DNA of 44,309 nucleotides, from positions 1 to 44,309 of the IMG/VR virus record IMGVR_UViG_3300047320_000350; one strand, written 5' to 3'. How positions within the stretch are numbered: position 1 is the stretch's first letter; each line of letters opens with the position of its first letter. Below are positions 4,555 to 42,833 of the stretch, in pieces. The notes beneath the pieces were generated by a model that was given only the letters and a program-made list of their open reading frames with translations, was not told where the DNA came from and did not search any database. The position numbers and the translations under genes were made by a program. The stretch comes from a virus.

Positions 4555-5961
4555 TCACTCCGAGCAAAATTCAGTAATGACAACGACGCCAGCAGACCCC
4601 GCCCCGCCGGTTGCCGTTGCGACGACGCCGTGAACAATTGCACCACCGCCGCCGCTGCCGTAGTTCGTGGCAGGAAAGCCATTCGCCGCAGATGAATTGG
4701 AAAGTTGCCCGCTGCCTGCTCCGCCAAATGGAGAGTTAGCTCCCGAGCCACTTGCTACCGTCAGCGTGTTGACTTGCTGATAAGCACCGGAGATTCCGCG
4801 GGCTCCCGCTGGCGTGAAATCTCCAGTTCCGGCCACACCACCGGGGCCCCCGGTCGGGAATTGAGTGATTGCTCCGTACAGACCACCCGACGCTCCCTTT
4901 CCGGTACAAAGGGATCCAACAGATGTATCTCCGCCGGCCCCGCCATTTGTGGACCCTGGACCGCCACCGCCGCCGCTGCCGATTGTGACTGACTGTGAAG
5001 AAGTGACCGTCGCTGCCGCTACGTATTTCCTCGCATATGAGCCAGCACCGCCGCCGGAACCCCCGTAACAGTGTGCGGCGTTAGCGCAGTTAGCGCCGCC
5101 GCCACCACCGCCACCGCCAAGACACTCGATGACCGCATACAAGAGATGAGGGTCCGGGGTGTAAGTACCGGACGACGTGAAGACCTGCGAGCGGACTGCA
5201 CCGACTGCACCCGCAGAGGTGCGCGCGGCCGCCGCCGTCGCGGCCTTGAAAAGGCTTTTACCAAGCGTTGTGCCGCCTAGATTGCCGAGCGCCGTATCAG
5301 CGTTTGCTAAGTCGGAAAGATTGTTAGCCGCAAGCAACGGGCGACCGATCGGCAGCATCAGCGCGTGGTAGTTTGTCCCGTCCGACCAGATGAATGCGCC
5401 TATGTTTGTCGGGAGAACAAGCGTCGCCGCGCCATTGATGGTCGACGTTGCCGGCGTGATCGTCACAGCGCCAGCGCCGGTGTTCTTGATCCACGTCGCC
5501 CAGCCATCGAAAAAGCCAGCGGTGCCGGCCTGGGCAAGTGAAACCGCAATGGCGCTTGCATTTGAGTAAGCGATTGCCCTGCCCCGATCGGTGCTCGCGA
5601 TCGCGTCCGTCGTGAGTGTGACACTGCGCGTGCCGCCCAGTCCCCCAATGTCTTCGGCGGCTTGCACGAAACGAACCTGAGCCGTTCCAGACAGGCTGAT
5701 TCGGCTCGTCCCGAGCGTGCCGGCATTACGCGACGCGAGGATCGTTGTGCGCGCGAGGGTGTTGCCGGAAGAGGTGTAAACACCCTTTCCAAGCTCCCAG
5801 TTGTTGGCGTCGACAATCAGGTACGTGTAGGTGCGCCCGTTCACGGCTCCAGCTTCTGCCGGCGTCATGAACAGCTGAGAATAAGCCGTTCCCAGCGTGA
5901 TCGGCGTGCTGTTTCCCGTCGCGCTCGTAAGAACGCGAACGAGATTGACCATGTCTGACAT
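4555..5961 (-). CDS. Tail fibre / receptor-binding protein with glycine-rich tip
   Basis: The 468-residue protein has an N-terminal region common to phage fibre proteins (about residues 1 to 230), a short helical neck (LLAANNLSDLANADTALGNLGG, a typical fibre repeat) and a C-terminal domain of about 190 residues dominated by Gly-rich runs (for example CLGGGGGGGGA and IGSGGGGGPGS). Glycine-rich distal domains are known from adhesins of T-even-like phages, where they form receptor-contacting loops. It most likely determines host range. AAAGGA precedes the ATG by eight bases. Confidence 0.8.
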   Translation of the reverse strand: MSDMVNLVRVLTSATGNSTPITLGTAYSQLFMTPAEAGAVNGRTYTYLIVDANNWELGKGVYTSSGNTLARTTILASRNAGTLGTSRISLSGTAQVRFVQAAEDIGGLGGTRSVTLTTDAIASTDRGRAIAYSNASAIAVSLAQAGTAGFFDGWATWIKNTGAGAVTITPATSTINGAATLVLPTNIGAFIWSDGTNYHALMLPIGRPLLAANNLSDLANADTALGNLGGTTLGKSLFKAATAAAARTSAGAVGAVRSQVFTSSGTYTPDPHLLYAVIECLGGGGGGGGANCANAAHCYGGSGGGAGSYARKYVAAATVTSSQSVTIGSGGGGGPGSTNGGAGGDTSVGSLCTGKGASGGLYGAITQFPTGGPGGVAGTGDFTPAGARGISGAYQQVNTLTVASGSGANSPFGGAGSGQLSNSSAANGFPATNYGSGGGGAIVHGVVATATGGAGSAGVVVITEFCSE

Positions 5962-5973
5962 GTGAAAAGTCCT

Positions 5974-6768
5974 TTATGCAGCGATTGCGAGAATGCGGAG
6001 CTTGCGGCTGCGGCTATCAACCTCAGGCCGATTTGAGGCCACGGTGACTACAGCCGTTGGTGGGAAAGCAGACTTTCCGGCCGTTACAAGCGGAGGTTGG
6101 AGCGAAACGATTACCAGCGGACTTCGTTTGACGACGCGGCTCGACTCTTCACCTTCACCGATCGAGAACTGAGCAACCGACGACGATGCGATTTCGCCGT
6201 ATGGCGTCACCATCGTGATGGTGTTGTTGGCCTCGATGTAATTGCCACCGAGGATCTGAACGCCCATCGGCACCACAGTGACATTCACCGTCCCGGGATG
6301 CAGCGTCGCACTGATCGAAATTCCCGGAGCCGCAGCGTCAACATCAACGACGGATGTTGGTGGGAATTGCGCCTTGCCCGCAGCGACGAAGGGCTCTTTG
6401 GTCGATACTGCAACAGAAGCGCCCGGAACGGTGATAACGGCGCCACCGCCGATACGGGGTGGCAGTGCCTCAACGGTAACAGCTAGAGGTCCCGCGGAGA
6501 CTGTCGCGCTGATCTCGACACTTGCCGCGCCGGACGTCACGGAAACGGCAACAGACGGTGGCGCGATACGAACGCCGGTGCGGACCGCAGGCGCAGCCGT
6601 CGTCGTGGTTATCCCGGTCGTCCCCGCGAGGACAGATGCGCCACAATGAATGACCGGCGCTGAGACGGTGAGCGACACCGCGACGGCCGGGGGAGCGAAA
6701 ATGACTGTATCCGCTTCCCCGGACAGTTCGCCGAGCGCGACCTGGCCTATGGAGTCATAGCCGAGCAT
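5974..6768 (-). CDS. Repetitive beta-rich tail-associated protein
   Basis: The 264-residue product is built of Val/Ala/Pro/Thr-rich beta segments with near-repeats: VAAGKAQFPPTSVVDV and VTAGKSAFPPTAVVTV, and PPAVAVSLT with PPSVAVSVT. It begins MLGYDSIGQVALGEL. Its composition fits an extended surface or fibre-like structural protein. It lies between the glycine-rich fibre and a small structural gene, in the same minus-strand late operon. There is no recognised enzymatic motif. The repeats may come from internal duplication. Confidence 0.6.
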   Translation of the reverse strand: MLGYDSIGQVALGELSGEADTVIFAPPAVAVSLTVSAPVIHCGASVLAGTTGITTTTAAPAVRTGVRIAPPSVAVSVTSGAASVEISATVSAGPLAVTVEALPPRIGGGAVITVPGASVAVSTKEPFVAAGKAQFPPTSVVDVDAAAPGISISATLHPGTVNVTVVPMGVQILGGNYIEANNTITMVTPYGEIASSSVAQFSIGEGEESSRVVKRSPLVIVSLQPPLVTAGKSAFPPTAVVTVASNRPEVDSRSRKLRILAIAA

Positions 6769-6777
6769 GATGGGCTA

Positions 6778-7209
6778 TCAGTAGGAAAATTTGGTCAGAC
6801 CGGTGACGTCCCACACGATCTTGAAATCCGTGGTTGCGCCGGCAGACTGCGATTGCCCAAAATCGATATAAATGAGCGGCTTGTCGCTCGTGTCGTCATA
6901 GACAAGCGCCGCATAGGCCGGACCGATTGAGCCGCCCGCTGCCGTGACTGAGACGTCGTCAGCGTCGATCATCGTGTCGTTCGTTGTTACCTGGGTGACC
7001 GTGACGTTCGCGAGGGTGATGCCGCCAGCGGTCCAGCCGTTGCCTGAAACTTCCTTCGCTCCGGATCCGTCGACTGCGTTAACCGTGGTATCTCCCGCGG
7101 CGAACACAGCGGTGTTATCGAGCAGCTTCACCTTCAACGTATTGTAGGTCACCTCTTTATTGACGATCAGCTTCGTCGTGTGATCGTAGAGCGACATAGA
7201 AACGGCCAT
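6778..7209 (-). CDS. Small phage structural protein (tail/fibre region)
   Basis: The 143-residue, beta-rich, acidic protein starts behind a strong ribosome binding site (GGAGGG, seven bases before ATG). It contains PAYAALVYDDTSDKPLIYIDFG, a pattern I associate with small phage structural proteins, but I cannot name the family. It lies in the late operon between tail genes. A role in tail or capsid decoration is inferred from context only. Confidence 0.55.
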   Translation of the reverse strand: MAVSMSLYDHTTKLIVNKEVTYNTLKVKLLDNTAVFAAGDTTVNAVDGSGAKEVSGNGWTAGGITLANVTVTQVTTNDTMIDADDVSVTAAGGSIGPAYAALVYDDTSDKPLIYIDFGQSQSAGATTDFKIVWDVTGLTKFSY

Positions 7210-7266
7210 AGATAAACCCTCCGTGTGAGCCGGTAAAGATTGGTGATGCGTGGTTGTGGTCAGGCC

Positions 7267-29514: not shown

Positions 29515-30159
29515 TTACTTGAGCAGATCTTCGATACTGACCGCTCCAAACGGATTTGGAATTGCTCGACGAGCAACGAAAAATCCGACGACCCGGCATT
29601 TCGGCGACTTTTCAAGGATCATATCCTTGACAGCTCTGTAATGGGAGCCTGTCGTCAGCAGGTCGTCCACCACACCAACACTACCTGGCAAGTCCACAAG
29701 ACAGTCCGTATTGAACCTATAGTTTTCCCTCAACTCTTCGGGTTTCTTTCTCTGGCCCTCGTGAAACCCATCCGTTGAATTGATTTGCTCGATCAGTTCT
29801 CGGACGTTGGGTTGGTTGGGCTTTCTGATCCGGCTGCAAATTTGGAGTATCCGATCGTCATGCATTGGATCGGACTTAATTTTTGAGGGAGGAATTGGAA
29901 TGAGAATCGAATTGCCGAGCCATTGCGCGTTGATGGTATGGGAGAAGGCTTTAGCGCAACTATCGATCGCGCCGGCTTTATAATGATAACCTCCGTCGCC
30001 TCTTTTCTTTTTCAGGTTATGAATCAGCTGATTGGTGTCGCCGCCACGCCAGCCAACACCGGCCGTGTACTCGTACAGAAAATAGCATTCGTCTTCTGGC
30101 GTGAGGTAGAAGTGATCGTGCCGATTTGTATCATCAATCGTTTGAAGACGTAGCGTCAC
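29515..30159 (-). CDS. Phosphoribosyltransferase-like protein (partner of DprA-like)
   Basis: From GTG 30159, which has GGAG eight bases upstream and overlaps the DprA-like stop by 26 bases, the protein has 214 residues (an upstream GTG at 30204 is also in frame). It carries the PRPP-binding signature VVDDLLTTG (residues 163 to 171) after a strand-like ILIPIPPSK (85 to 93), as in type I phosphoribosyltransferases and ComF-like proteins. The N-terminal 80 residues (HFYLTPEDECYFLYEY) are specific to this group. The long overlap implies strictly coupled expression. The substrate base is unknown. I recall similar pairs being listed as candidate phage-defence systems. Confidence 0.75.
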   Translation of the reverse strand: MTLRLQTIDDTNRHDHFYLTPEDECYFLYEYTAGVGWRGGDTNQLIHNLKKKRGDGGYHYKAGAIDSCAKAFSHTINAQWLGNSILIPIPPSKIKSDPMHDDRILQICSRIRKPNQPNVRELIEQINSTDGFHEGQRKKPEELRENYRFNTDCLVDLPGSVGVVDDLLTTGSHYRAVKDMILEKSPKCRVVGFFVARRAIPNPFGAVSIEDLLK

Positions 30160-31045
30160 CGAGCGCGCTCCAGATATCTTGCGGCGCGCGAACTCGAATA
30201 GCACCCTTCTTCTCGTAAGCAGCTGGCCATGAAATGTCTTTGCGGTCGAAACACGAATCGAGAATGAAAAGCTTTCTGCCTTGCTGCAGCGCTGCCCGCG
30301 CTTGGGTTAAGGTTCCACTTGTGTCACTCGCTTCAATAATAATGGTGGCTTCAGTGAGAGCGCTCATTGTCACGTTTCGCTCTGGAAAGAAGAGCTTGTT
30401 CTGGGGCACGTGCTGGCTGGCATAGCGCAGGACTGGGACTTGCGAAATGAGCAAAAATTCCTCTGCGATTTGTCTTTGCAAATCCATATTTTCTTTTGGG
30501 TAATAGACCCCAATCGGAGTGCCGATAACCGCAACTGTCCGGCCTCCAGCTTCAATCGCCGCTGTATGAGCCGCCGCGTCTATGCCAGCAGCAAGACCGG
30601 AAACAACAGTGAACCCCTTCTCGACCAAGGCACGCGCAATCCTTCCCGCGCGACGCTTTCCTTCATCGCTAGCATTTCTGCTGCCGACAACAGCGACGCT
30701 GCGAGTTTCGGCCAACTCCCACGTGCCCTGAAAGTAGAGCATTTCAACTGGATATCGGGCGTCGCGAAGCTTAGCCGGGTAATTGCCAGTCAGGTTGAGT
30801 CGAGTGCCGAACCGAGAAACGCCCGCCTTCGAGAGCTTCGTGAGCGTCTCAGCAGCTCGAGCCTCTGCAATCGGTCGCGAGACGAAATCAGATGGCATCG
30901 CCATCGGATCAGCCGCGAATTTTTCGGCGATCGTTTTAAAAGTGGCGCCCTTTTCGAGCCATAAAGCCTCATACGCCCCTAACTCTAAACGGGGCGAGAC
31001 CGCAGAGACCGCGGGACCTGTACTCATTCGGGCAAGTAAACTCAT
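30134..31045 (-). CDS. DprA/Smf-like Rossmann protein
   Basis: Counted from ATG 31045 (AGGG eight bases upstream), the protein has 303 residues; ATG 31099 in the same frame is the alternative. Residues about 90 to 265 carry the DNA-processing protein A core: VAVVGSRNAS (117 to 126), SGLAAGID (149 to 156), GGRTVAVIG, YYPKEN, FPERN (220 to 224) and DTSGTLTQARAAL. The N-terminal 90 residues differ from chromosomal DprA, and the C-terminal winged helix is missing. Chromosomal DprA binds ssDNA and loads RecA; here a role in sensing nucleic acid or nucleotide is more likely. Its promoter carries an SOS box. Confidence 0.82.
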   Translation of the reverse strand: MSLLARMSTGPAVSAVSPRLELGAYEALWLEKGATFKTIAEKFAADPMAMPSDFVSRPIAEARAAETLTKLSKAGVSRFGTRLNLTGNYPAKLRDARYPVEMLYFQGTWELAETRSVAVVGSRNASDEGKRRAGRIARALVEKGFTVVSGLAAGIDAAAHTAAIEAGGRTVAVIGTPIGVYYPKENMDLQRQIAEEFLLISQVPVLRYASQHVPQNKLFFPERNVTMSALTEATIIIEASDTSGTLTQARAALQQGRKLFILDSCFDRKDISWPAAYEKKGAIRVRAPQDIWSALGDATSSND

Positions 31046-31158
31046 GGGAAAAACCCTATCTGCGTGCTTCGAGTCCGTCGAATCGAAGCGTCGAGTCATC
31101 ACCAGCTTTTCTCACCAACTCCTATCCTAGGCTTTTGGCTCGCAGGTGGCGGAAGACG

Positions 31159-31187
31159 ACAATAGAACAAATAGAGAACATTGTAAA
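31159..31187 (-). promoter_or_regulatory. SOS (LexA)-type promoter of the DprA/PRTase cassette
   Basis: On the minus strand TTTACA (31187-31182) and TATTGT (31164-31159) are separated by 17 bases. The spacer contains GTTC-N7-GTTC (31179-31165), an exact match to the alphaproteobacterial LexA box. LexA bound here would block RNA polymerase, so DNA damage should switch on the cassette. A second promoter-like pair, TTGATT-N16-GATAAT, lies about 35 bases upstream. Confidence 0.7.
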
Positions 31188-31716: not shown

Positions 31717-32241
31717 CTATGCCGCCTGCAGGTTGGCTAAAGTCACCTTAGCGACCGTTCGCCCCATCATCGCCATTTCAAGCAACACTTCTGCCCGGTC
31801 ACCCTTCATGGACTTGATCCGGCCAATCAGCTCGGAAAATGGGCCCTTTGGGATCACCACCCTCTGACCGATTTCGAAAGCTGGCGGCCGATTGAACTGC
31901 CGGCAGCGCTCCATCTCAATGTCTGCTTCGGTCATCCTGATGAGATCGAATGCCGGATCCGGAAGAGACGCTGGCCGACCTTCGATCTGCAGGAAGTCGC
32001 GAATGCCCGGGATCGCCCGGATCGTCTCCCACGGTTCAGCGCCGATCTGCAGGTTGGCGAAGACGTAGCAGTTGAACATGGGCTTCGGCACGATGCGAAC
32101 AGCGCCGCGGCCTGCCCGCTGAGCCCGAGCGATCTTCGGGACGTACTGCTCGAAGTTGCGAGCCTTCAGACCGTCACCCGCCTTGAGCTCTTGCCCCGGC
32201 TCCGAAATCAGAATGTGCCAACGGTATAGCGCGTCATTCAC
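31717..32241 (-). CDS. NusG-like antitermination factor
   Basis: The 174-residue protein has an NGN-type N-terminal domain (YRWHILISEPGQELKAGDGL, then PMFNCYVFANL and IRAIPGIRDFL) and a C-terminal KOW motif (IGQRVVIPKGPFSELIGRIKSMKGDRAEVLLEM). This is the architecture of NusG and its specialised paralogues such as RfaH. A phage copy in the early operon probably lets RNA polymerase read through terminators into late genes. Its start overlaps the stop of the ribbon-helix-helix gene by four bases. A broken copy of its 3' end lies at 31239-31326. Confidence 0.85.
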   Translation of the reverse strand: MNDALYRWHILISEPGQELKAGDGLKARNFEQYVPKIARAQRAGRGAVRIVPKPMFNCYVFANLQIGAEPWETIRAIPGIRDFLQIEGRPASLPDPAFDLIRMTEADIEMERCRQFNRPPAFEIGQRVVIPKGPFSELIGRIKSMKGDRAEVLLEMAMMGRTVAKVTLANLQAA

Positions 32242-33627: not shown

Positions 33628-34369
33628 AGCCGTCACTCGCTTGTTGATTACCGTTTGCGATTTCCGCGAAGCCGTTCGTCTCTCGGGAAGCGAACGCAGG
33701 AGGCCCGGCGCCACCGCGGATAACTGCGCCGATGTACTCAGAGGGGCTTTGCTTCGTTGACGCCTGCTCGATCGCAGCTCGAGCCAGTGCAACGTTGCCG
33801 CCCTTAGCGTGCACGAGTTTGACGATCACGCCACCGGCGCTCTTGCCGAGAACCTGCTTTCCACGATCGAATAATTCCTTTTCGGGATCAGACGACGCCA
33901 CCGGCGTCCGTTCCGTAGGAACGGAATCTTCTTTGGTGGTTGTAGATGTGTTGAATTTTGCTGCACCACTGGTTGAACCTGTGCTTACAGCATCCGTTGA
34001 CGCTTGCCTGCGTTCTGCTTGTAGCTTTGCTTCTTTTGCTTGTTTTCGCGCCAAAGCGGAGGCTCTCCCGCCCTTTTGGCCTGCTTGCGACTTCTTCTCG
34101 ATCTTCTCATCCGTCAACGCTAGTTCAGCGTCGATGCGCGGATGCTTCCACCCTTGCTTGAACAGACGTTGAAGCACTGGTGCAGCACTCGTCCATTCCT
34201 CCGGACTCATCCGGGCGATGCGCATCAGTTGGACTTCGTCGTCGGGCAAGCCGTCTTTCTGCCAATACTGCATGATCAGCAGTAGGTACGCACCGTGCTC
34301 CAGAGTACTGAGATGCTGGGTGTCGCCGAGGTAATCCGCGATGTAGAGGGGCATCCATGGACGGCTCAT
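33536..34369 (-). CDS. DUF1376-type replication protein
   Basis: The 277-residue protein starts MSRPWMPLYIADYLGDTQHL and continues LEHGAYLLLIMQYW, the hallmark of DUF1376, a winged-helix domain at the N-terminus of phage and prophage replication initiators. A basic, low-complexity linker (about 105 to 155) and a C-terminal domain follow. Its start overlaps the stop of the GIY-YIG gene (TAATG). It likely binds the phage origin or recruits the host replisome. Confidence 0.8.
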   Translation of the reverse strand: MSRPWMPLYIADYLGDTQHLSTLEHGAYLLLIMQYWQKDGLPDDEVQLMRIARMSPEEWTSAAPVLQRLFKQGWKHPRIDAELALTDEKIEKKSQAGQKGGRASALARKQAKEAKLQAERRQASTDAVSTGSTSGAAKFNTSTTTKEDSVPTERTPVASSDPEKELFDRGKQVLGKSAGGVIVKLVHAKGGNVALARAAIEQASTKQSPSEYIGAVIRGGAGPPAFASRETNGFAEIANGNQQASDGYGSDHRIIDVTPNQSGGSHGPDRRKEFASR

Positions 34370-34974
34370 TAGCGTCGTCCTCCTGCGCGCATACCGGCGT
34401 GCTTGGCGATCACCTTCTCTGCGGCCAGAGAGTCTGCCCACCAGCGCGGTTTTTTATCCCCCGCCATGAGAGCTTTGAGGTAGTCCCAGCCGTCTTCACT
34501 TTGGATCAATTTCTGAAGCTCTTCGGCCGTATAGCTAGAGTGGTTTGATAGCCGCTTTTTGGCCACGCGTTCGCTGATGCCCGAAATCTCGCTAAGCAAT
34601 TCAAATGGCCTCGTCCCGTAGGGACGCTTCTGCTTTATGACGTTCGTGATTGCTACCTGCGCCGCCGACGCTGCGGCGGTTGGCTTGCGTTCTTTCTCCA
34701 CATGCCCGATAGCGGATGGACCCCGGGCGACAAGGTCATCGATCGCCGTCCGCACAGGGACGCAGTCGTGAAACCACTCACCCTTTACCCTGTGAGGTAG
34801 AAGATGCTTTTGGACCGCGCGTTCAAGCTGATACGTTCCGCTGATGGTGGCGATCAACGTCAGCTTGCTAGGCGCCGAGGTGGCTAATTGGTACATCCGG
34901 TTTTTCACGTCGGTCGAGAAGCCGATCTTGATGCGCCCCGCGCACTCAATGAAATAGACGTTACCGCCCTTCAT
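34369..34974 (-). CDS. GIY-YIG nuclease domain fused to an HTH-like domain
   Basis: Residues 1 to about 85 of this 201-residue protein form a GIY-YIG domain of the T5orf172/MUG113 type: NVYFIECAGRIKIGFSTDVKNRM, then TYQLERAVQKHL and GEWFH. Residues about 120 to 185 form a second domain (PFELLSEISGISERVAKKRLS to YTAEELQKLIQSEDGWDYLKALM). The neighbouring upstream gene encodes the same second domain without the nuclease. The pair overlap by four bases. The HTH-like part may direct the nuclease to particular sequences; this is inference. Confidence 0.78.
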   Translation of the reverse strand: MKGGNVYFIECAGRIKIGFSTDVKNRMYQLATSAPSKLTLIATISGTYQLERAVQKHLLPHRVKGEWFHDCVPVRTAIDDLVARGPSAIGHVEKERKPTAAASAAQVAITNVIKQKRPYGTRPFELLSEISGISERVAKKRLSNHSSYTAEELQKLIQSEDGWDYLKALMAGDKKPRWWADSLAAEKVIAKHAGMRAGGRR

Positions 34975-36176: not shown

Positions 36177-36206
36177 TCTCAGGAACACGACCGCCGGCGA
36201 TTCCGC

Positions 36207-36509
36207 TCATGCGGCACCTGCTTGTTCTGGTGCGGTGGCGAGGACTTTCGCCTCTGTATCATCCGGCGATGCGGTTAAGGGCGGGAGAAATTCGTCTGAA
36301 GTCAGGGGAATTCCGTTCTCTCTCGCATATTCCAGAATTTTACGATGGTGCCGCTGCGGAATGAGTCCGCCTGTGCCGCCGCGCTCGCGGGAATAACACC
36401 AACGATAGGGAGCAACCCTTTTGGTTCCGGTCACGCGAGACACAACCATCTCCCCGCCAAGCTTCTTTATGATGCTGGCAGCGGGCTCTGCCGGAATGGT
36501 CAACTTCAT
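36207..36509 (-). CDS. Cro-like regulator of the lysis-lysogeny switch
   Basis: The 100-residue protein contains LGGEMVVSRVTGTKRVAPYRWCYSRERGGTGGLIPQRHHRKILEYARENGI, the helix-turn-helix pattern of small prophage regulators that sit opposite a CI-type repressor. GAGG lies eight bases before the ATG. It is divergent from the repressor at 36620, with operators in the 110 bases between. It would act as the early regulator favouring lytic growth. Confidence 0.75.
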   Translation of the reverse strand: MKLTIPAEPAASIIKKLGGEMVVSRVTGTKRVAPYRWCYSRERGGTGGLIPQRHHRKILEYARENGIPLTSDEFLPPLTASPDDTEAKVLATAPEQAGAA

Positions 36510-36539
36510 AGGAACGACCTCGCAAATCAGGCCGCATTA

Positions 36540-36617
36540 TTTTCCGTTTTAGAAATTATCGCAATAGTATTTTCGATTTTGGATGTTGCCATCACTGAAT
36601 TTTTGCGAAGTATGAAA
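36540..36617. promoter_or_regulatory. Operator region O1-O3 between cro-like and repressor genes
   Basis: Three related 16-base sites lie at 36540-36555 (TTTTC-N7-GAAA), 36570-36585 (TTTTC-N7-GATG) and 36602-36617 (TTTGC-N7-GAAA). Their starts are 30 and 32 bases apart, about three helical turns, so bound proteins would lie on the same face. The third site covers the bases before the repressor start codon, which suggests autoregulation. The same motif occurs twice beyond the repressor gene. Confidence 0.75.
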
Positions 36618-36619
36618 AA

Positions 36620-37387
36620 ATGACCGAAAAGAAACGCGCCAATGAACTTGCGCTGGACTACATCCAGTCCGAGTTGACACGAACAGGAGCCGCCAAAGGC
36701 GACTTGGCAAAAGCCATGAATATTAGCGCTTCCGCGCTATCGAAGATCTTGACGAAGCAGCGCCAAATTGACCTTGGCGAATTGTTCCTGGCTCAGAGGT
36801 TCTTCCAGTCGCCTCCGGAAATCGAGATTCAGCTCGTCCAATCATTATTCCCGGATAGAAAGATCAAACTGAATCGAGAAACGGACCGACCGCGATTGAC
36901 CGATCAGCAGGCGCTGGCCGCAGCGCGGCGCCTAAGCACCATGGAACTGGACGAGACGGGACCCGAGGTGAAGGGGATACGAAACCCGAGAGACGTGGAC
37001 ATCTTTCACACGACCCCGGGTAACGATAAATCTTTCATCGTCGGCCCCCAAGTCATGGGCCTTAAACTTCGCCCCCCGACGATCCTGCTCGCTAGGAAAA
37101 TTGCAGCAATTTACATGGTGGGGGCATCAGCTAGCCCAAGATATAACGACGGTGAGCTCATCATATTCGACGTTGAGCGATCACCCGCGATAGCGGAATA
37201 CGTCATCATCGAGGGACACCCGGTTAATGCTAGCGGCATGCGATCAGCTTACGTGGGCCGCTTGGTAGAGCGGAATGGCACAGACGTCTCCATCGACTTG
37301 ATTTCCTCAAGGATGACTTTGCACTTTCCTACCGGCGAATTTTCCGCAATCCGTAGGATAATACCTCTAGACGAACTTTTGCCGTGA
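36620..37387 (+). CDS. CI-like prophage repressor, S24-type C-terminus
   Basis: The 255-residue protein has an N-terminal helix-turn-helix (TGAAKGDLAKAMNISASALSKIL, residues 22 to 44) and a C-terminal LexA/CI-type domain with MVGASASPRYNDGELIIFD (Ser170 at the catalytic position). The lysine normally found in the VKRL element appears replaced: AYVGRLVER has Gly213 there. If so, RecA-stimulated self-cleavage may not occur, and the antirepressor encoded next door could be the inducing factor. Operators of the motif TTTTC-N7-GAAA flank the gene on both sides. Confidence 0.82.
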   Translation: MTEKKRANELALDYIQSELTRTGAAKGDLAKAMNISASALSKILTKQRQIDLGELFLAQRFFQSPPEIEIQLVQSLFPDRKIKLNRETDRPRLTDQQALAAARRLSTMELDETGPEVKGIRNPRDVDIFHTTPGNDKSFIVGPQVMGLKLRPPTILLARKIAAIYMVGASASPRYNDGELIIFDVERSPAIAEYVIIEGHPVNASGMRSAYVGRLVERNGTDVSIDLISSRMTLHFPTGEFSAIRRIIPLDELLP

Positions 37388-37389
37388 TT

Positions 37390-37441
37390 TTTTCTAATAT
37401 CGAAATTTATTTCTTGCGTAATTTTCGAATATGGAAATAAT
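37390..37441 (+). promoter_or_regulatory. Operators O4-O5 and promoter of the antirepressor operon
   Basis: Two perfect TTTTC-N7-GAAA sites lie at 37390-37405 and 37422-37437, 32 bases apart. The second covers the spacer of a promoter-like pair, TTGCGT (37414-37419) and AATAAT (37436-37441), and overlaps the -10 box. Repressor bound here would silence the rightward operon beginning with the antirepressor. Confidence 0.7.
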
Positions 37442-37465
37442 GGACTTCCGAATCTTCGGGAGTCC
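37442..37465 (+). promoter_or_regulatory. Hairpin enclosing the antirepressor ribosome binding site
   Basis: GGACTTCCG pairs with CGGGAGTCC (one G-U) across a six-base loop; the pairing can extend to eleven bases per arm. The ribosome binding site GGGAG lies in the 3' arm, six bases before the ATG at 37469. The hairpin lacks a T run, so it is not a terminator. It should reduce translation unless opened by temperature, RNA or a protein. Confidence 0.6.
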
Positions 37466-37468
37466 ACC

Positions 37469-38209
37469 ATGTCGTCTTCATTTCCAGCAGTCATTGTCCG
37501 CCAGATCGGTGCCAGCACCGCACAGGCGGTTGATGCGCGCGATTTACACGCAGCCCTAGGCAACGGCGATCACTTCGCCACATGGATGCGAGATCGCATC
37601 CGCCAATTCGATTTCACCCAAGGCTCTGATTTCGTTTCTTATTCGGAAAAGACGGAAAAAGGTGCGCCTCGCACCGAGTACGCCGTATCCCTCGACATGG
37701 CGAAAGAACTCGCCATGGTCGAGCGATCCCCGAAGGGCAAAGAAGTCCGTCAATACTTCATCGAATGCGAGCGTCGCGCCAAAGGCACGGTGCCGGCCCT
37801 CCTACCCGACTTCTCGAACCCAGCCATCGCCGCCCGCGCATGGGCTGAGCAGTACGAACGCCGCGATATCGCTGAGCGGCAGGTTGCTGTCCTCGAGCCC
37901 AAGGCCGTCGCGCTGGACCGCCTGACCGCCGCCGATGAAATGATCCTGATCAGCGATGCGGCGAAGCGGTTGGATAAACCGATCAAGGATGTGTTCGCCT
38001 GGCTTCGTGCCAACAAATGGATTTTCCGCCGTGCCGGTTCGAAGCGCGACATCGGATACGCCGACAAGCTTCGTGCCGGTCTGCTCGTCCATAAATATCA
38101 CACGGTGCCGCAGGACGACGGCCCGGAAGTTCTCAAGGAACAGGTCCATCTGACGCCGAAGGGCCTTGCGCATCTTGCCGGCGTGTTCGGCCGCGAGGTC
38201 AGCCGATGA
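37469..38209 (+). CDS. Antirepressor, AntA/AntB plus KilAC domains
   Basis: The 246-residue protein has an N-terminal AntA-type domain (QAVDARDLHAALGNGDHFATWMRDRI, then YAVSLDMAKELAMVERSPKGKEVRQYFIECER) and a C-terminal KilAC/ANT domain from about 140 (MILISDAAKRLDKPIKDVFAWLRANKWIFRR, then HLTPKGLAHLAGVF). Such proteins inactivate prophage repressors. It is the first gene of the rightward operon and is controlled by two repressor operators and a leader hairpin. It is coupled to the next gene by an ATGA overlap. Confidence 0.88.
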   Translation: MSSSFPAVIVRQIGASTAQAVDARDLHAALGNGDHFATWMRDRIRQFDFTQGSDFVSYSEKTEKGAPRTEYAVSLDMAKELAMVERSPKGKEVRQYFIECERRAKGTVPALLPDFSNPAIAARAWAEQYERRDIAERQVAVLEPKAVALDRLTAADEMILISDAAKRLDKPIKDVFAWLRANKWIFRRAGSKRDIGYADKLRAGLLVHKYHTVPQDDGPEVLKEQVHLTPKGLAHLAGVFGREVSR

Positions 38210-38394
38210 ACGCGCAGATCGTCAAACCCCTCGCCCGAGTCCTAGCAGCCTCATCCTGCGACCTTGGTGACGAACGCGAAGTAATGCGTGCTCTCCGCGA
38301 CGCTGGCATTCCAGAAGGCAGCATCATTGTACTGATGGATGACGCAATCGAGCAGGCCCGCGTTGTCCGCGCGGCAGAAGGCGCGCTCACATGA
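38206..38394 (+). CDS. Small acidic protein coupled to antirepressor
   Basis: The 62-residue protein begins at an ATG overlapping the antirepressor stop and ends at a TGA overlapping the start of a 31-residue gene. Its sequence (DLGDEREVMRALRDAGIPEGSIIVLMDDAIEQARV) suggests two helices separated by a turn. No family was recognised. The chain of four-base overlaps implies co-expression with the antirepressor. Confidence 0.55.
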   Translation: MNAQIVKPLARVLAASSCDLGDEREVMRALRDAGIPEGSIIVLMDDAIEQARVVRAAEGALT

Positions 38395-41787: not shown

Positions 41788-42833
41788 AAATCATTCCAGT
41801 CGGGGATGTGCTCGCGATCTATTTAGACGCGACGTTAGAAACTCTGCGCGATCGCTTCAAGGTCACCGAAGAAACTGAAGACGGCATTGCCGCCATTCGG
41901 AAATTCAAAGCTCGCATCGGTCGCCTCAATGACTATTGGGGTGCGAAGATGCTGTCGGACGTCGACGGTGACGAATGCCGATCATACAGGACGAAACGGG
42001 GAAACCGAGGCGGCGCGCGCCGCGACCTCGAAGACCTACGATCGGCTATCGGTCATCACTCCGCCGAGGGCTACCACCGCGGCGTTGTAAAAGTGACGCT
42101 TCCGCCCAAAGGCCAAGCCCGCGACCGATGGTTGACCCGCGACGAGGCTGCCAAACTGATTTGGACGTGCTGGCGGCACCGCGAAGTGCAGACTGTTCAT
42201 CGCGGCCCGATGAAGGGGCAGAAGATCGAAACGGATAAGCGACCACTTCGTCACCTCGCTCGCTTCATTCTGATAGGCGCTTACACGGGCACGCGGGCGG
42301 CTGCGATAGCAGCCTCGTCCCCTATTCCGGCAATTGGTCGATCCTACGTGGACCTTGAACGAGGCCGCTTTTATCGCCGGTCCCAAGGATCTGCTATCAC
42401 CAACAAGCGACAGCCAACCGTACCTCTGCCTCTCCGTCTGTTAGTTCACCTAAGGCGCTGGCATCGTATCGAGCCCGACGCAAAGCACTTCGTCGGATTC
42501 AACGGAAAGCCGGTGTCTTCGGTGAAGACCGCGTTCAAAACTGCGGTCCGTCTTTCGAAGCTTTCGACGGCCGAAGGAAACATTTCACCGCACACGCTGC
42601 GCCACACTGCAGCGACCTGGCTGATGCAGGCCGGCACAGATCCTTGGCAGGCCGCTGGCTATCTCGGAATGTCGTTGGAGGTCCTGCTCAACACTTACGG
42701 CCATCATCACCCAGATCACATGGCGGATGCCGTGGAGAAGATTGGCAAGCGCCCCGGCAAGCGAGAACGTAAGAAGGACGTATCTGGGGCGGTAACTGGT
42801 GCGGTAGTGAAATTTCCGAAGAAGAAAATGTAA
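41574..42833 (+). CDS. Tyrosine-recombinase integrase
   Basis: The 419-residue protein has an N-terminal arm-type and core-binding region (about 1 to 180) and a catalytic domain with Arg241 (TGTRAAAI), Lys278 (ITNKRQP), His340 and Arg343 (HTLRHTA) and nucleophile Tyr375 (NTYGHHHP). That set is complete, so the enzyme should be active. The C-terminus is basic (GKRPGKRERKKD). It ends 17 bases from the 3' end of a tRNA gene, its presumed attachment site. Confidence 0.93.
   Translation: MPRKSKGARLHLKGERRDKSGNVTHRATWIIRDGARDVFTGCTEDEIAEAEQALSTYIASKHKPKRKAQDIEIIPVGDVLAIYLDATLETLRDRFKVTEETEDGIAAIRKFKARIGRLNDYWGAKMLSDVDGDECRSYRTKRGNRGGARRDLEDLRSAIGHHSAEGYHRGVVKVTLPPKGQARDRWLTRDEAAKLIWTCWRHREVQTVHRGPMKGQKIETDKRPLRHLARFILIGAYTGTRAAAIAASSPIPAIGRSYVDLERGRFYRRSQGSAITNKRQPTVPLPLRLLVHLRRWHRIEPDAKHFVGFNGKPVSSVKTAFKTAVRLSKLSTAEGNISPHTLRHTAATWLMQAGTDPWQAAGYLGMSLEVLLNTYGHHHPDHMADAVEKIGKRPGKRERKKDVSGAVTGAVVKFPKKKM

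Follow-up and report, generated by a model that had tools for sequence, protein, structure and literature searches.

A lambda-like prophage switch of new operator specificity, with an antirepressor gene at PL and a probable RNA lock

In phage lambda, the centre of OR2 lies at −42 of PRM and the cI mRNA is leaderless, and the Cro proteins of lambdoid phages share the operators of the repressor. The nut elements of lambda and the put elements of HK022 sit in early leaders. The Ant-type proteins of P22 and P1 are silenced in the lysogen at the levels of both transcription and translation, and the fold-back inhibition of Tn10/IS10 works on the same principle as the leader of T4 gene e. In the latter, the Shine–Dalgarno sequence of long transcripts is covered by a helix, whereas transcripts from the proximal promoter, being without the 5′ strand, are translated (PMC3014915). 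The operator sets of lambda lie about 2.3 kb apart and comprise three sites each (PMC5880393). In the Gifsy and Fels-1 prophages, uncleaved repressors are inactivated by antirepressors; FsoA of Fels-1 is under the control of the phage's own repressor, and the Gifsy antirepressors are small proteins encoded outside the immunity region and controlled by LexA (PMC3121763).

Here, we describe a region of a 44,309-bp virus record from IMG/VR (the window). We take this region, with a probability of roughly 0.85, to control immunity in a temperate prophage of the siphovirus type, resident in a Nitrobacteraceae host, on the OR/OL plan of lambda and through the steps proposed below. As in lambda, divergent cro and repressor genes surround three sites, and a second, distant operator cluster (kilobases away in lambda) is found past the repressor gene and has a promoter that points the same way as that gene; sites are located in promoter spacers, the distance from O2 to the start of the repressor gene is about 42 bp, and the repressor mRNA is probably leaderless. 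The locus differs from lambda in having two sites rather than three at the OL position, a centre spacing of 30–32 bp (24–35 bp in the family) rather than about 20–24 bp, and an antirepressor gene rather than N at PL; additionally, it has a hairpin over the Shine–Dalgarno sequence, a Cro-like protein of an unrelated family and a repressor that is devoid of the catalytic lysine. The host is identified from the right end of the window, which carries a tRNA-Met gene and bioA: the best match to the latter is from Afipia massiliensis (85%), and the host is therefore taken to be a Nitrobacteraceae bacterium.

The operator array and its reader

All five inverted repeats of the original prediction were found on sequence inspection at the positions claimed for them, flanking the repressor gene (Table 1), with the expected start-to-start spacings of 30, 32 and 32 bp, which correspond to 2.86–3.05 helical turns. 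As had also been claimed, O1, O4 and O5 are perfect and the other two are altered, O2 in its right arm and O3 by one change. The symmetric core is a 15-bp palindrome, TTTC-N7-GAAA, and the leading T falls outside the symmetry. Two bases separate the end of O3 from the repressor AUG, and O2 lies 852 bp from O5. Profile searches bore out the description of the three genes. The AntA and ANT (KilAC) domains of the antirepressor score 83.3 and 83.0 bits, respectively, well above the curated cut-offs of 27 and 25.3. The Cro-like protein reaches 31.5 bits against NF046037, below the cut-off of 38, and is not assignable as a member of that family; its name rests on gene position and homologues. Our literature search on carph-isopro found nothing.

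Table 1. Features of the immunity region (window coordinates)
Feature	Coordinates	Centre	Strand	Description
Cro-like gene	36207..36509		− (leftward)	100 aa; carph-isopro domain (NF046037, E=1.5e-7)
PR-like promoter (predicted)	36536..36564		−	For cro; −35 TTGCGA (36559–36564), N17, −10 AATAAT (36536–36541); O1 fills spacer
O1	36541..36555	36548	none	TTTCCGTTTTAGAAA; with leading T, from 36540, TTTTCCGTTTTAGAAA; L094 counterpart at 5059
O2	36571..36585	36578	none	TTTCGATTTTGGATG; with leading base, from 36570, TTTTCGATTTTGGATG; centre 42 bp 5′ of repressor AUG
PRM-like promoter (tentative)	36586..36616		+	−35-like TTGCCA adjoins O2; −10-like within O3; leaderless start at or near 36620
O3	36603..36617	36610	none	TTGCGAAGTATGAAA; with leading base, from 36602, TTTGCGAAGTATGAAA; L094 counterpart at 5122
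Repressor gene	36620..37387		+	255 aa; HTH_3-like N-terminus (weak match); S24/LexA-like C-terminus, shown via relatives
O4	37391..37405	37398	none	TTTCTAATATCGAAA; with leading T, from 37390, TTTTCTAATATCGAAA
PL-like promoter (predicted)	37414..37441		+	For antirepressor; −35 TTGCGT, N16, −10 AATAAT; +1 about 37448; O5 fills spacer, O4 at −50
O5	37423..37437	37430	none	TTTCGAATATGGAAA; with leading T, from 37422, TTTTCGAATATGGAAA
Hairpin over antirepressor Shine–Dalgarno sequence	37441..37466		+	11-bp stem; 5′ arm 37441–37451; GGGAG (37458–37462) in 3′ arm
Antirepressor gene	37469..38209		+	246 aa; AntA (PF08346), E=1.9e-23; KilAC/ANT (PF03374), E=2.4e-23

The record contains 28 matches to the motif with at most one mismatch, a number that none of 100 shuffles reaches, against 11.5 expected. 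In AT-matched Markov sequence, the p value for a cro–repressor triple as good as O1–O3 is 0.0001, and a pair as good as O4–O5 before the antirepressor gene occurs in 0 of 20,000 such sequences. Moreover, neither a triple nor a pair occurs in any of the 17 other AT-rich 110-bp segments of the record; the equal motif density in unrelated AT-rich spacers, against which the original prediction had cautioned, was not seen either in these segments or under the AT-matched null. Single perfect sites at 37635 (− strand), inside the antirepressor gene, and at 42813 (− strand), where the integrase gene ends, stand alone and resemble background. Double TTTTC-N7-GAAA sites are not rare among viral contigs (at least 119 stretches), as would be expected if the array were a chance likeness of A/T tracts in an AT-rich spacer, but none of these stretches, which we took as AT-rich background, lies near a related repressor or Cro. 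Together with the null comparisons, the positional conservation in a close relative and the 13 parallel cases with other motifs described below lead us to reject a chance origin, the probability of which is practically nil.

The close relative, L094, is the only one with this exact operator, and its repressor is 67% identical to that of the window in the DNA-binding part. All five sites recur in the DNA of L094, with 31, 32 and 28 bp between centres, and a motif derived from the five window sites ranks their counterparts 1–5 in the 45.6-kb contig (scores of 19.7–28.0, against 15.8 for the next match). In the reverse scan, using the L094-trained motif, four of the window sites rank 1–4 and O2 ranks 8th. 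Since the cross-trained motif finds the homologous positions, it provides independent support for the repeats as operators, which, on these sequence comparisons, they almost certainly are.

Homologues of the Cro-like protein are present in 15 of 391 genomes of the bacterial family. Via this gene, we located 14 immunity regions, including that of the window, in which the triple between cro and repressor could be resolved; L260 and L267 show no clear triple of inverted repeats. All 14 resolved loci have three similar inverted repeats in this gap, with O1–O2 spacings of 30–34 bp and O2–O3 spacings of either 24–26 or 32–35 bp. When a locus-specific motif was trained on the three cro–repressor sites of each locus, exactly one strong extra pair was found downstream, 767–3,120 bp away and spaced by 28–35 bp, in 13 of the 14 loci, although these do not represent 13 independent events (for example, the HTHs of L268 and L271 are 88% identical). 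None of 60 simulated sequences per locus reaches the scores of these pairs, and the one locus without a pair is L106, which is 71% identical to L270. Conservation in related prophages, proposed as a check in the original prediction, is thus seen as five sites in L094 and as a 3+2 layout in 13 of 14 loci; the predicted control by the repressor of its own gene, the cro operon and the antirepressor gene is supported as well. A literature search on this layout in rhizobial prophages found nothing.

The operators form five groups that match the groups of the repressor HTHs. Operator similarity is correlated with repressor HTH identity (Mantel r = 0.41, 1/5000), also when Cro is allowed for (partial r = 0.36, 8/5000), and is not correlated with Cro given the repressor (−0.06, 3368/5000); because the operator covaries with the repressor HTH and not with Cro, the repressor is likely to be the main reader of the sites. 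That they serve mainly the Cro-like protein or a host regulator, the repressor reading something else, is very improbable. The use of the same operators by lambdoid Cro proteins is established, and the Cro recognition region also varies between the operator groups, but the dependence on the repressor persists after allowing for Cro and not vice versa. Furthermore, the Cro proteins of L104 and L261 (58–63% identical to that of the window) are at least as close as that of L094 (57%), yet only L094 shares the operator, and we saw no convincing second motif.

Promoters and operator geometry

The promoters in Table 1 are consensus predictions, and the match for PRM is weak and ambiguous. The PR-like promoter is the only promoter-like match at threshold in the interval 36200–38300, for which 1.3 are expected in shuffles, and its geometry is the same in the 14 loci. 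The layout of the PL-like promoter matches that of PR: relative to the predicted starts, O1 and O5 lie at −17 to −22 across the loci and O2 and O4 at −48 to −53, O4 alone ranging from −49 to −53. Repressor dimers, as judged from sequence and comparison, would bind O1–O3 in the gap between cro and repressor and O4–O5 before the antirepressor gene. With O1 and O5 in the respective promoter spacers and O2 and O4 about 50 bp upstream of the starts, this matching placement suggests that both lytic promoters would be shut in the same way.

In each of the 14 loci, 42–45 bp separate the centre of O2 from the repressor start codon, with a standard deviation of 0.9 (4.4 for the O3–AUG distance), start codons having been picked from open frames and several loci having other in-frame starts. 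No convincing Shine–Dalgarno sequence precedes the repressor AUG in the 14 loci. From this constant distance, the lack of a convincing Shine–Dalgarno sequence and the parallel with lambda, we infer that the repressor mRNA is probably leaderless and activated from O2; in the window, O2 would thereby activate PRM, whereas O3, which covers the −10 region of PRM, would mediate negative autoregulation. In several loci (L104, L261, L262 and L270), the cro AUG lies 6–8 nt behind the predicted −10 of PR, and cro may be leaderless there too.

Repressor occupying both arrays may also loop the intervening 850 bp. Such looping is plausible on the geometry, and the helix-phased 3+2 arrangement recurs with 767–3,120 bp between the arrays.

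The repressor, the antirepressor and the route of induction

The catalytic serine of the repressor is retained as Ser170, in a GAS motif that aligns with GDSM of the relatives. The catalytic lysine is replaced by glycine (VGRLV where the relatives have (I/V)KRL), and the Ala/Gly-Gly cleavage motif of the hinge is gone, TTPGN being present instead of T(A/V)xGG. L094 has the same glycine in place of the lysine and has also lost the hinge glycine pair; among the repressors aligned, the S24 lysine is absent only from these two. The loss of both the lysine and the glycine pair makes self-cleavage unlikely, and the repressor has probably lost this activity, which would fit induction via an antirepressor, as in the Gifsy phages. 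Induction would then proceed through the antirepressor, with positive feedback once its promoter fires.

The repressor had one full-length relative (46% identical; L081, L094) in the 391 family genomes scanned, and many of the matches in bacterial genomes cover the C-terminal domain only. No relatives were found in viral contigs or in phage and plasmid collections, and a PDB search gave only chance matches to segments of spike proteins. An AlphaFold model, calculated without relatives, had a mean pLDDT of 43 and was not used.

The antirepressor gene appears, like that of FsoA, to be under the control of the phage's own repressor. In contrast to the Gifsy antirepressors, it encodes an AntA/KilAC protein at the PL position under a phage operator, and a box scan found no LexA-type boxes near the immunity region or the antirepressor gene. 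Elsewhere in the window, a GTTC-N7-GTTC LexA-type box (31165–31179) lies 63 bp upstream of the gene for a DprA/SLOG-type protein (30134–31102, − strand; PF02481, E=2.4e-55), where 1.8 such boxes are expected by chance in the record. A T5orf172/MUG113 (GIY-YIG-like) protein is encoded in the early leftward region (34369–34974, − strand).

A Pfam search of ten first genes behind PL recognized only that of L104. Its product, a pRha + KilAC protein encoded directly behind the O4/O5 pair (6454–7211, with the locus in reverse-complement orientation), is a second, different antirepressor-type protein at this position. The gene behind O5 of L094 is not recognizable as an antirepressor; it encodes a 112-aa protein without a Pfam family (5965–6303, + strand) that, next to a repressor there without the lysine, is a candidate for a new antirepressor.

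A probable RNA lock at the PL leader

The repressor and antirepressor genes are co-directional and 81 bp apart, and the hairpin between them has its 3′ arm over the antirepressor Shine–Dalgarno sequence. Its 5′ arm begins upstream of the predicted +1 (37448), behind the −10 box. In the window, RNA that reads through from upstream folds at −27.9 kcal/mol (z = −4.0), against −4.3 kcal/mol for RNA that begins at the predicted +1; the unpaired probability of the Shine–Dalgarno sequence is 0.00 in the former and 0.22 or 0.37 in the latter, depending on the downstream RNA included. The short transcript predicted for the window retains part of the 5′ arm. In most of the 13 PL leaders, there is a stem with a 5′ arm that begins at or just behind the −10 box. 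The Shine–Dalgarno sequence is sealed in read-through RNA and opened by a start at +1 in seven of the 13, against about 5% of 43 control genes, a small set that may include a few PL genes (Fisher p = 2e-4). L262, L265, L266, L268, L269 and L271 show this effect weakly or not at all.

These folding predictions point to a probable RNA lock at the PL-type leader, by which read-through transcripts of the repressor gene could not be translated into antirepressor, whereas transcripts from the derepressed promoter, lacking part of the 5′ arm, would be translatable. The predicted structure, together with the predicted +1, would fit a start-dependent Shine–Dalgarno helix of the kind in T4 gene e and Tn10; it differs in being located at a repressor-controlled prophage promoter, in recurring in relatives and in retaining part of the 5′ arm. 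As for ant of P22 and P1, an Ant-type protein would thus be kept silent at the levels of both transcription and translation, but the proposed block acts in cis and depends on the transcript start, whereas P22 and P1 deploy Arc/Mnt and small antisense-type RNAs. We give even odds to the broader reading that the Nitrobacteraceae family of lambda-like switches guards lysogeny by such a lock, the PL-equivalent promoter being built into the 5′ arm so that read-through blocks the antirepressor or another early gene and a start at the derepressed promoter unlocks it.

The hairpin could instead be a nut- or put-like antitermination element, an mRNA stabilizer or an inverted repeat bound by a protein, rather than a block to translation. 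Elements of the first kind are known in early leaders, long multi-hairpin leaders are found at three loci and the phage encodes its own NusG-like protein; on the other hand, the arm sequences vary by locus, yet the 3′ arm contains the Shine–Dalgarno sequence in most, which fits base-pairing better than a fixed protein site, and we consider this explanation conceivable but rather unlikely. The leaders concerned, those behind O5 in L261, L268 and L271, are about 90 nt long, and two hairpins that look conserved (CATCAGC..GCTGATG and GCCCGGC..GCCGGGC) precede the first gene. The NusG-like protein (31717–32241, − strand; PF02357, E=1.3e-13), encoded in a leftward operon upstream of the structural genes, is a candidate phage antiterminator. 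That the hairpin is an intrinsic terminator of the repressor transcript is very unlikely: such a role would suit a strong stem immediately 3′ of the repressor gene, but no U run follows the hairpin in either the window or L094, and a terminator scan listed no intrinsic terminator between the repressor and antirepressor genes.

Overall, the locus is a lambda-like switch, with three sites at OR and two at OL, that combines a new operator specificity with an antirepressor at PL and a probable RNA lock. The probable lock suggests how repressor and antirepressor genes of the same direction can follow each other at a distance of 81 bp with no obvious terminator. Together with its relatives, the locus makes up a natural collection of lambda-like switches from Alphaproteobacteria that share a constant layout (3+2 operators, a fixed distance from O2 to the AUG, and PR and PL of equal geometry), whereas the operator and the DNA-binding domain of the repressor co-vary in five groups; such a set is useful for reading repressor–operator specificity and for predicting immunity groups.
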